Source: Asanoa sp. WMMD1127 (GTDB lineage: Bacteria; Actinomycetota; Actinomycetes; Mycobacteriales; Micromonosporaceae). Taken from it: a stretch of 64,000 nucleotides of DNA. The notes under the pieces were generated by a model. That model did no database searches, had not been told where the DNA came from, and was given only the letters and a program-made list of their open reading frames with translations. This document shows positions 18,807-36,151 of the stretch, one piece after another. The stretch is taken from NCBI RefSeq assembly GCF_029626225.1, contig NZ_JARUBP010000001.1, forward strand, positions 2,976,001 through 3,040,000, written 5' to 3'. The first letter of the stretch is position 1, and every line of letters starts with the position of its first letter. The translations under genes and the position numbers were made by a program.

Positions 18807-18834
18807 GAACCGGGTGAGAACCGCGTGAGAACCG
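18802..18834 (+). repeat. Three tandem 11-bp units at a stop/start junction
   Basis: Three copies of (C/G)GTGAGAACCG lie head to tail. The first holds the TGA stop of the SpoIIE gene and the third holds the GTG start of the histidine kinase. Each unit carries a GTG, and the 11-bp period puts them in three different frames. Slippage here would move the kinase start. Confidence 0.8.
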
Positions 18835-20108
18835 CGACGGCCGGCGGGCTGCAGGGCCCGCTCTGGCGCGCGCTCGTGGTGTTCCGGTTCGCCTCGCTGG
18901 CCTTCGCGCTGGCGCTGATCGCCGGCAACGTCAGCGACTACGAGCGGCCGCTGGCGGCGATCCCGGTGGTCGTGGTGCTGATCGGCTGGACGATCGCGGC
19001 GAGCGTGCTGTTCGCCCGCCCGGAACGGCGTCACTGGCCCCTGCTGATCACCGATCTCGCGGTCACCGCGGCCGTGCTGCTCTCGGCCGAGTGGGTGATC
19101 GGCCCGGCGGCACTCGGCGCGGGCACGCCGGGGCTGGCGGTGGCCTGGTTGGCGGCGCCCGTGCTGGCCTGGGCGGTGGCCGGCGGGCGCCGGCTGGGCA
19201 TCCTGGCCGCCCTGCTGATCGGGCTCGCCGACATCGCCGTCCGGCCGCGGCTCAACCAGGCGTCGGTCACCGGCACGAGCCTGATGCTGCTGGCCGCCGT
19301 CGGCGTCGGGCACCTCACCCGGCTGGCCGCGGTCGCGGAGGAGCGGCTGCAGCGGGCGGTCGAGCTCGAGGCGGCCACCCGGGAGCGGGAACGGCTGGCC
19401 CGGGACATCCACGACTCGGTGCTCCAGGTGCTCGCCCTGGTCCGACGGCGGGGCGCCAGCCTCGACGGTGAAGCCGGCGAGCTGGCCCGGCTCGCGGGCG
19501 AGCAGGAGGCCGCGCTGCGCCGGCTGATCGCCACGGGCGCGCCGCCACCGTCGGCCAGCGGCGCCGTCGACCTGGGCGCGCTGCTGTCCGCGTACGCCAG
19601 TGACGTGGTCTCCGTGGCCGCGCCCGCGACGGCCGTGTCGCTGCCGGTGGAGGTGGCCACGCAGGTCGCCGCCGCCGTCGGCGCGGCGCTCGACAACGCC
19701 GCTCGGCACGCGGGCGCCACCGCCCGGGTCTTCGTGCTGGTCGAAGACGAGCCGGACTCCGTGACCGTGACCGTCCGGGACGACGGCGTGGGCATCGCAC
19801 CCGGCCGGCTGGCGGCGGCGGAACGCGAGGGGCGGCTGGGCGTCGCGCAGGCGATCCGCGGCCGGGTCACCGACCTCGGCGGCACCGTCCGCATCCACTC
19901 CGCCCCGAACCAGGGCACCGAGATCGAGCTCCGGATCCCCAGGGTCCGTCCGGCGGATCATGCCGGCACTCCGGCGGGCCCAGGCGGCGCCCGACCGCAC
20001 GTGGGGAGGGGGCAGATACAACACCGGTATCCGCCCCCTCCCCACGCACGCCCGGACGCCGCCTGGACCTCGCCGGAGCACCACCCTGATCCGCCGGACG
20101 GACCCTAG
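18825..20108 (+). CDS. Sensor histidine kinase (NarL-partner, MacS-like)
   Basis: A 427-residue kinase. Five or six membrane helices occupy about residues 15-165, followed by a helical segment and a HisKA_3 dimerisation domain with ERERLARDIHDSVLQVLALV, where His196 is the expected phosphorylation site. The GHKL ATPase domain spans about 270-370 (ALDNAARHAG, VRDDGVGIAPGR). The conserved domain ends near IELRIPRVRP. The remaining roughly 55 residues are proline/glycine/histidine rich and are encoded by a large palindrome, so they were probably added to the gene rather than conserved. Ten bases separate its stop from the response regulator. It starts 18 bp after the SpoIIE stop. Confidence 0.88.
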   Translation: MRTATAGGLQGPLWRALVVFRFASLAFALALIAGNVSDYERPLAAIPVVVVLIGWTIAASVLFARPERRHWPLLITDLAVTAAVLLSAEWVIGPAALGAGTPGLAVAWLAAPVLAWAVAGGRRLGILAALLIGLADIAVRPRLNQASVTGTSLMLLAAVGVGHLTRLAAVAEERLQRAVELEAATRERERLARDIHDSVLQVLALVRRRGASLDGEAGELARLAGEQEAALRRLIATGAPPPSASGAVDLGALLSAYASDVVSVAAPATAVSLPVEVATQVAAAVGAALDNAARHAGATARVFVLVEDEPDSVTVTVRDDGVGIAPGRLAAAEREGRLGVAQAIRGRVTDLGGTVRIHSAPNQGTEIELRIPRVRPADHAGTPAGPGGARPHVGRGQIQHRYPPPPHARPDAAWTSPEHHPDPPDGP

Positions 20109-20109
20109 G
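19938..20109. repeat. 172-bp imperfect palindrome forming the 3' end of the kinase gene
   Basis: The arms are about 76 bp with a 19-base loop (20014-20032). Four perfectly complementary blocks occur in order: 20 bp (19941-19960 with 20087-20106), 8 bp (19969-19976 with 20071-20078), 10 bp (19980-19989 with 20057-20066) and 14 bp (20000-20013 with 20033-20046). The outer block is AGGGTCCGTCCGGCGGATCA. Several intervening mismatches would be G-U pairs in a transcript of the minus strand. It may be an inserted MITE-like element, a large intra-operon hairpin, or a multi-site operator. Confidence 0.85.
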
Positions 20110-20117
20110 CTGTCCGC

Positions 20118-20756
20118 ATGATCCGGGTGATGGTGGTCGACGACCATCCGATGTGGCGCACCGGTGTCGCGCGGGACCTCGCGGAGGCCGGCTACGACGT
20201 GGTGGCGACGACGGGGGAGGGGCGGCAGGCGGTCCGGATCGCCGGCGCGACCCGGCCTGATGTGGTGGTGCTCGACCTGCAGCTGCCGGACGTCTCCGGT
20301 GTCGAGGTCATCCACGGCCTGCGCGCGGCGCTGCCCGAGGTGCGGGTGCTGATGCTGTCGGCCAGCGGCGAACAGCAGAGCGTGCTCGACGCGGTGAAGG
20401 CGGGCGCGACCGGCTACCTGGTCAAGTCAGCGGCGCCCGACGAGTTCCTGGCCGCGGTCGCCCGCACCGCCGCCGGTGAGGCCGTATTCACGCCGGGCCT
20501 CGCCGGGCTGGTGCTGGGCGAGTACCGCCGGCTGGCGGCCGCGCCGGAGCCGGCCCGGGACGCGCCCGCGTTGACCGAGCGCGAGACCGAGGTGCTGCGG
20601 CTCGTCGCCAAGGGACTGTCCTACAAGCAGATCGCCGAGCGGCTGGGCGTCTCGCACCGCACGGTGCAGAACCACGTCCAGAACACGCTCGGCAAGCTGC
20701 AGCTGCACAACAGGGTCGAGCTGACCCGCTACGCCATCGAGCAAGGGCTCGACTGA
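20118..20756 (+). CDS. NarL/FixJ-family response regulator
   Basis: A 212-residue regulator. The receiver domain has the acidic pair at D8-D9, phospho-acceptor D53 (VVVLDLQLPDVSG), conserved threonine/serine region MLSASG and lysine in YLVKSAAP. A GerE/LuxR helix-turn-helix occupies about residues 145-205 (LTERETEVLRLVAKGLSYKQIAERLGVSHRTVQNHV). It follows its cognate kinase by 9 bp of untranslated sequence, so the pair should be co-transcribed unless the intervening palindrome interrupts transcription. Confidence 0.93.
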   Translation: MIRVMVVDDHPMWRTGVARDLAEAGYDVVATTGEGRQAVRIAGATRPDVVVLDLQLPDVSGVEVIHGLRAALPEVRVLMLSASGEQQSVLDAVKAGATGYLVKSAAPDEFLAAVARTAAGEAVFTPGLAGLVLGEYRRLAAAPEPARDAPALTERETEVLRLVAKGLSYKQIAERLGVSHRTVQNHVQNTLGKLQLHNRVELTRYAIEQGLD

Positions 20757-35830: not shown

Positions 35831-36151
35831 CTAGGGCCGGTCCTGCCGATCAACGCGGCTGTCGACGGGCCGAGCCACCGTCAGACGCCCCCCGGGTCGG
35901 GCCCGGCACCGAGCCACGACCGCCACCACCGCCAGGCACACCACGAGGCTGATCAGCAGTGCCGGGACGCCGAACATGGCGATCAGGAGGCGGGCGCTGT
36001 CGCGGGGTGCCGGCACGCAGCCGAAGCCGATTCCTTCGCACTGGCCGTCCGGGTTGTGGTCCGGCAAGGCGAACGTGCCGGCGCAGGCGAGGGCCAACAG
36101 CGCCGCGTGGGCGGCGGCCACCCACAGCGCCGCCTTCCCGCTCCGATTCAT
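35831..36151 (-). CDS. Small membrane protein, paralogue 2
   Basis: A 106-residue protein starting MNRSGKAALWVAAAHAALLA. It has the same plan as the following gene: hydrophobic segment, a loop with two cysteines (GQCEGIGFGCVP), a second hydrophobic region (about 55-82) and a basic tail. The paired loop cysteines suggest an external disulfide. The two genes are a recent or conserved tandem duplication. Function unknown. Confidence 0.62.
   Translation of the reverse strand: MNRSGKAALWVAAAHAALLALACAGTFALPDHNPDGQCEGIGFGCVPAPRDSARLLIAMFGVPALLISLVVCLAVVAVVARCRARPGGRLTVARPVDSRVDRQDRP

Follow-up and report, generated by a model that had tools for sequence, protein, structure and literature searches.

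The gene of a sensor histidine kinase in Asanoa sp. WMMD1127 ends in a 172-bp near-palindrome, which raises the question of what this structure is and how it came to encode the end of a kinase. The initial annotation of the window (the whole stretch of 64,000 nucleotides analysed) proposed an inserted MITE-like unit, an intra-operon attenuator setting the kinase/regulator ratio or a multi-dimer operator for autoregulation.

Anatomy of the palindrome

The near-palindrome is real and makes up one foldback at positions 19938–20109, which consists of inverted repeats 19938–19976/20071–20109 (85%) and 19977–20019/20027–20069 (84%) with a lone extra base at 20070. Folded as RNA, the plus strand reaches −144 kcal/mol (z −15.6) and the minus strand −180.2 kcal/mol (z −18.1), and 0 of 200 shuffles were as low in either case; the foldback is far beyond chance. 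Of the four complementary blocks given in the initial annotation, those of 20 and 8 bp align ungapped, and those of 10 and 14 bp, traced by eye, require the one-base bulge. The supposed 19-base loop around the centre contains a further 5-bp stem. The Rfam search of the window copy gave no match at the gathering score and five sub-threshold microRNA look-alikes, and 17 other palindrome loci gave 0 matches at that score, so that no known structured RNA family was recognised.

The ends of the element proper were placed from a comparison with other copies and with the empty sites of congeners. The features of the locus are as follows.

18825–20108, plus strand: MacS-family sensor histidine kinase, 427 aa (NF047322, 446.9 bits, cut-off 300)
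19940–19941, no strand: left target-site copy, now CA and presumably TA originally (congeners have CCTAAG at the equivalent codon pair, 5/5)
19942–20105, plus strand (the core orientation): palindromic MITE proper, 164 bp between the TA copies, GATACAACACCGGTATC
19942–19960, plus strand: left terminal inverted repeat (TIR), GGGTCCGTCCGGCGGATCA; compare the IS5 ends TAGGGCGTGTCCTG(C/G)CGATCA in the same genome
20015–20031, plus strand: apical stem-loop, the best-conserved 17 bases of the element, GATAC-AACACCG-GTATC (minus strand GATAC-CGGTGTT-GTATC)
20087–20105, minus strand: right TIR, exactly complementary to the left one
20106–20107, no strand: right target-site copy TA, which with G 20108 forms the kinase stop codon TAG
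20118–20756, plus strand: NarL-type response regulator (receiver and LuxR-type HTH), adjoining the kinase in congeners too

The kinase gene with and without the palindrome

As had been supposed for the ATPase domain, the similarity to known kinases ends where the palindrome begins: the NCBIfam MacS model aligned to residues 10–372. The coordinates also agree with a palindrome-encoded tail of 55 residues (373–427), a stop codon in the right-hand end (20106–20108) and a gap of 9 bp to the regulator. The kinase frame is open across all 164 bp of the element up to the far TAG. The same MacS kinase and regulator are found without palindrome or tail in all five congeners (L256–L260), where the kinases end a few residues past the ATPase domain; there the target codons read CCTAAG, and nothing resembling the core is present (5/5). 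The kinases of other genera have no tail either (11/11 examined), so that the alignment of 3′ ends suggested earlier found it in none of the 16 other kinases; a tail shared by orthologues independently of a DNA palindrome, the expectation for ordinary coding sequence, was not seen. Since all five congeners possess the pair without palindrome or tail, the insertion is recent. Judged from these sequence comparisons, the recent arrival of the window copy and its coding of the kinase tail can be regarded as shown. The flanks fit an original CCTAGG (Pro-Arg codon pair, CC-TA-GG) in which TA was doubled and the left copy is now CA. The TA was struck out of frame a few codons upstream of the MacS stop, and the kinase gained 55 residues replacing its last native ones, with its stop still close to the regulator start. 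The odd kinase tail is thus accounted for as a transposon footprint.

Two explanations specific to this operon have to be weighed against an insertion. A regulatory element of the kinase/regulator pair, be it the attenuator or the operator, would suit the position of the palindrome between two genes and its very stable fold, but the palindrome is missing from the same operon in 5/5 congeners, and its other copies are found at different loci, beside other genes and mostly at gene ends; both versions of this proposal were abandoned as very improbable. It is just as hard to believe that the element was co-opted as a kinase domain and the tail is a selected protein sequence. The frame open through the whole element would agree with that, but open frames are usual in the family (median 4 of 6 per element, 142 elements), and the tail is known from this genome alone.

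The regulator starts no more than 5 bp from the kinase stop, or overlaps it, in 4/5 congeners. In Asanoa ishikariensis (L257, G004:C4), a tandem duplication sets kinase and regulator 159 bp apart; its unit of about 75 bp has in each case its own small GC-rich hairpin and a start-like end, ATGACCGA.

Copies and distribution of the family

A search of the genome of Asanoa sp. WMMD1127 (G000; 8 Mb, 3 contigs) matched the 172-bp sequence 46 times, always on the same chromosome; some matches represent the two strands of a single copy, and the palindromic copies number 26. Matches are present in 5/5 congeners, so the search proposed in the initial annotation proved the sequence to be multi-copy and shared with relatives. 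The 17-base core is present without mismatch in 49 of the 200 Micromonosporaceae genomes sampled and in 15 of 44 genera, including all six Asanoa genomes; its absence from the other 151 genomes rules out a general chromosome-architecture motif. Among the core matches listed, at least 102 of 120 loci hold a palindrome, and two core matches of genome G051, which are not palindromes, were left out. The palindrome finder, which tolerated up to 3 mismatches in the required core, yielded 206 finds, of which 159 are distinct. The counts are based on 161 distinct fixed windows; the ends were recognisable in 153 and failed in 8. The element measures 162–164 bp between the TA copies in 119 of the 153.

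Palindromes were also found in Nocardia, Rhodococcus and Glycomyces records. Those of L204, L225 (Nocardia panacis) and L212 (Rhodococcus spelaei) are family palindromes outside Micromonosporaceae and Glycomycetaceae. A check for spread beyond actinobacteria at 11 loci, mostly non-actinobacterial, found a palindrome in a Nocardiaceae bin alone. The phage and plasmid collections, searched at E 1e-5, gave no palindrome match in either, and phage carriage was also rejected for the 17-mer: its four viral-contig matches include no palindrome. A literature search of titles and abstract starts found no description of this palindrome family, and a search for miniature inverted-repeat together with Micromonospora gave no match.

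Some copies differ in structure. The loci L129, L132, L141, L169, L217 and L228 (Longispora albida) represent a subfamily with quite different ends (TAGAGGTCCTAACT...) and the same apical stem-loop. Two copies of the Asanoa sp. WMMD1127 genome (L013 and L029, G000:C1:3545013-3545090 and 3833805-3833838) are internally deleted, having lost the apical part and kept the paired ends, as expected from hairpin deletion. The window itself contains, at approximately 35832–35890, a solitary end of a further copy, in which TAGGGCCGGTCCTGCCGATCAACGCGGC precedes a degenerate arm, with no nearby partner end listed.

Termini, target site and IS5-type partner

The recognised copies have TIRs and no transposase gene (153 of the 161 distinct windows). 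TA flanks both ends in 71 of 153 elements, mostly as CTAG (29) or TTAG (21), and in the remaining 82 one copy or both are altered or unclear; the state of the window copy, left CA and right TA, was met in 11 of 153. The genome of Asanoa sp. WMMD1127 also carries four IS5 elements of 928–931 bp bearing the TIR given above, with frames matching DUF4096 and DDE_Tnp_1 on one copy and NF033580 on all four. The search with NF033580 gave 22 matches in this genome, and the ends found at ten loci form three TIR groups, all starting with TAGG. One palindrome subfamily shares 20 of 21 bases with the IS TIR, being one base off (TAGGGCCTGTCCTGCCGATCA versus TAGGGCGTGTCCTGCCGATCA); for the TIR subfamily of the window copy itself, the searches made gave no exact IS partner. 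The likeness to IS5-family elements comprises the TIR sequence and the TA beside the ends; in contrast to them, the palindrome has no transposase and resembles them at its ends alone. An IS5-type element with the TIR TAGGTTCTGTTTTGCCGATCA (L238, G005:C6:172640-173576) lies at the extreme end of its contig.

When 73 distinct Asanoa elements were compared, flank similarity was shared by just 2 pairs, which suggests that insertions occurred mostly independently between species. The copies are dispersed, and the empty site, examined for the window copy, was found in 5/5 congeners. Together with the multiplicity of copies, the TIRs, the TA copies and the co-resident IS5 with near-identical TIRs (in one subfamily), this upheld the suggestion of a MITE-like unit; by its anatomy, the family is shown to be mobile, with insertion at TA. 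We infer that the palindrome is a non-autonomous element mobilised in trans by an IS5-type transposase. Such a transposase would bind the TIRs of about 19 bp and insert the element at TA, mostly within YTAR, leaving TA on both sides. The REP/RAYT and IS200/IS605 elements have no TIR or target duplication and use an HUH transposase, and the presence of TIRs and TA copies sets the family apart from elements of these types.

Stop codons and gene context

The gene context was assigned by a crude GC3 rule on 300-bp flanks, not by annotation. Under this rule, 106 gene ends are open up to the element: 98 stop at its near end, 5 stop inside, 2 read through and a single one, that of the window kinase, runs on to a stop at the far TA. 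Among the 98 near-end stops, 86 TAG and 5 TAA begin at the TA, 5 (TAA or TAG) begin a base before it and 2 are TGA; the rejoined, element-less site stops at the same place in 91 of the 98. Of the other flank sides, 147 showed no coding in the direction of the element, and 42 genes end short of it. At least one gene stops at an element end in 76 of the 142 elements with both flanks, and genes do so on both sides in 19. The rejoined site carries a stop codon at the element end in 71 of 142; for comparison, of the 51 YTAR sites in the window, 11 coincide with stops, 16 fall elsewhere within coding sequence and 24 lie between genes. The comparison of 71/142 with 11/51 indicates that target preference and survival explain much of the pattern, perhaps not all of it.

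Convergent genes surround 64 of the 153 elements (p 6e-6 against 25%). The contexts (+,+) and (−,−) are represented by 32 and 41 elements (p 0.35), giving no sign in the gene context that minus-strand transcripts matter; a minus-strand function in mRNA was rejected for want of such a signal. It is likely that the G at both ends of most copies remakes a TAG or TAA into which the element inserts, usually as TAG and on either strand. As the stop codon would be remade, an element landing at the end of a gene, in many cases with a convergent gene on its other side, would do little harm. The frequent docking of the family at stop codons is shown by the frames predicted here.

The palindromic elements of Rickettsia habitually insert in frame inside protein genes and are read as protein. 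The window palindrome resembles them in being read in frame too, but this use is exceptional in its family (1 of 106 gene ends), and the 98 genes stopping at the near end set the family apart from elements of that type.

Interior of the element

From the 153 elements, 47 non-redundant ones were chosen by length and similarity and aligned on the minus strand. RNAalifold found 56 pairs, 47 of them with two-sided changes. The paired cells amount to 93.5% versus 73.5% in shuffled and 36.8–42.5% in slid alignments, the slid control favouring the structure because the latter was derived from the same alignment. Among 43 Asanoa copies, the mean majority fraction reaches 0.978 in the core, compared with 0.823 elsewhere in the interior and 0.780 for the TIRs. 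These copies were found by whole-element similarity in Asanoa alone, and 30 of the 43 have the exact core; the invariance of the core outside Asanoa is partly built in, because most non-Asanoa copies were found via the exact core.

The mismatches between the arms are asymmetric. In a tally scored alike for both strands, the inner arms of the plus strand have AC 298/GT 128, CC 113/GG 8, CT 80/AG 6 and AA 6/TT 20, and the TIRs have AC 44/GT 13; on the minus strand, these correspond mainly to G.U, G.G and G.A. Over all 161 windows, AC amounts to 1284 and GT to 433, with AC above GT in 133 windows, below in 16 and equal in 12. The asymmetry is most pronounced in the 82 Asanoa windows (AC 790/GT 121; AC above in 81, below in 1) and weaker in the 79 others (AC 494/GT 312; 52 above, 15 below, 12 equal). 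The cells are not independent events, because a large part of the asymmetry comes from positions that copies have in common, and AA 6 versus TT 20 contradicts a uniform strand rule. The excess of mismatches that become G-U pairs in the minus strand, noted initially for the window copy, is thus real and family-wide. The asymmetry is better established than its cause, and one possible cause that fits the family-wide pattern is selection for a minus-strand hairpin, suggested at the same time. Simple C-to-T drift is doubtful, as C>T (29/369 sites) and G>A (38/460) are alike within clusters on the minus strand, although the singleton states within clusters keep the asymmetry at copy level (AC 36/GT 8, inner arms and TIRs); the disagreement of site-level and copy-level counts led us to reject drift as the sole cause.

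The interior is more than filler, to judge from the concerted turnover of the two arms, the near-constancy of the apical stem-loop and the predominance of mismatches that the minus strand tolerates (G.U, G.G and G.A). It seems that this strand, when folded as RNA or as single-stranded DNA, may help the element to spread or persist.

Orientation relative to the replication fork

In the genome of Asanoa sp. WMMD1127, dnaA is located at 2.074 Mb and a lone dif-like site at 6.242 Mb, which we take to be dif by its consensus (no more than 3 mismatches). All 16 palindromes from dnaA to dif are in the plus orientation and all 10 others in the minus orientation, so that 26/26 share one fork orientation; the core match at 4191916, not a palindrome, was excluded. 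With the midpoint in place of dif the count is 24/26, and both exceptions lie between midpoint and dif. The same orientation is seen in 12/15 copies of congener G001 (one core match excluded as not palindromic) and in 11/13 of congener G004 (8/10 on the origin contig and 3/3 on the dif contig; a hand tally with palindromes checked, leaving out copies on contigs that carry neither origin nor dif), which makes 23/28 for the two together. Two palindromes of G001 about 1 kb apart (L250, G001:C1:8088067 and 8089012) both lie against the usual orientation, which a local inversion would explain. The Micromonospora genome G184 has 1/7 and genome G118 has 1/1 in the shared orientation. On the draft contigs of 8 other genomes, neighbouring copies agree in 24 cases and disagree in 16 (p 0.27), core matches having been used for this test, 3 of 26 fetched not being palindromes. 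The fork-orientation bias is not general, and G184 contradicts the idea that one orientation is purged everywhere.

By DNA parameters, the plus strand folds more weakly in every element tested (by 8–30 kcal/mol in Asanoa and 7–15 kcal/mol in G184), and in Asanoa this strand is on the lagging-strand template. Because the near-identical TIRs give a transposase hardly any basis for a choice, the bias in Asanoa probably arises from the other orientation being lost or poorly established.

A bias made at insertion, by fork-directed targeting through sub-terminal sequences differing between the ends and not by later loss, is possible but doubtful: the sub-terminal arms do differ, insertions are mostly independent between species (2 flank-similar pairs, 73 Asanoa elements), and the orientation in Asanoa sp. 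WMMD1127 is uniform, but the TIRs are near-identical at the two ends, and G184 is opposite. Long palindromes are unstable, and the foldback might also be kept by DNA repair and not by selection for a fold. Hairpins extruded at the fork would allow one arm to serve as template for the other, so that both change in concert, and NucS, an actinobacterial mismatch-specific repair enzyme with a preference for G.T, G.G and T.T, would remove such mismatches from an extruded plus strand, leaving A.C and C.C. The rarity of GG on that strand and its place on the lagging template in Asanoa agree with this, as do two-sided yet Watson-Crick pair changes, common as single-copy states (48, of which 34 in TIRs and 14 inner, although a single copy from a distant sub-lineage can supply several). 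Repair by NucS, however, predicts a depletion of TT where TT exceeds AA, does not predict the excess of CT over AG, and has to meet an asymmetry that extends, if more weakly, outside Asanoa; we consider it rather improbable. Selection on a folded minus strand, the preferred reading, can be taken further, to a DDE-type element that needs a single-stranded fold of one strand to spread or persist and combines IS5-type ends, strand-specific RNA or single-stranded DNA inside, coupling to the fork and stop-codon docking. This stronger version is put forward tentatively, as a conjecture that may well prove wrong.

Comparison with known repeats

The ERIC/IRU repeats of enterobacteria are near-palindromic in form. 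The RUP of Streptococcus pneumoniae, in the part of PMC2229807 that deals with it, is a small non-autonomous repeat with IS-like TIRs inserted at TA, tied to IS630-Spn1 and carrying stops in six frames. The present family is likewise small and non-autonomous, with TIRs like those of a co-resident IS and insertion at TA, but its ends are IS5-like, and it is largely stop-free and folds end to end. The Correia/NEMIS repeats of Neisseria are also small mobile repeats, for which the same part of that source mentions one size class fused to open reading frames and an RNA stem-loop with RNase III proposed as important; the present family differs in host, sequence and size and in its conserved apical stem-loop and frequent stop-codon docking. 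With ERIC/IRU, the family has in common the near-palindromic form and the importance of orientation; for ERIC/IRU, that part of the source reports an effect of orientation on mRNA, whereas in the present family orientation follows the replication fork, in Asanoa only (PMC2229807).

Meaning of the palindrome family

Taken as a whole, it is highly probable that the palindrome is an IS5-type MITE inserting at TA and remaking stop codons, and that the window copy came to code for a kinase tail, with the mobilisation in trans and a use of the folded minus strand to the element deduced from sequence. The family offers natural replicates for studying the lifetime of palindromes in bacterial chromosomes, the possible dependence of a cut-and-paste element on a single-stranded fold and the way in which remade stop codons keep the harm done by mobile DNA small; the uniform fork orientation of all 26 copies is directly testable. 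If the stronger version is true, the element would depend on a single-strand fold and, by docking in stop codons, would hardly disturb its host.
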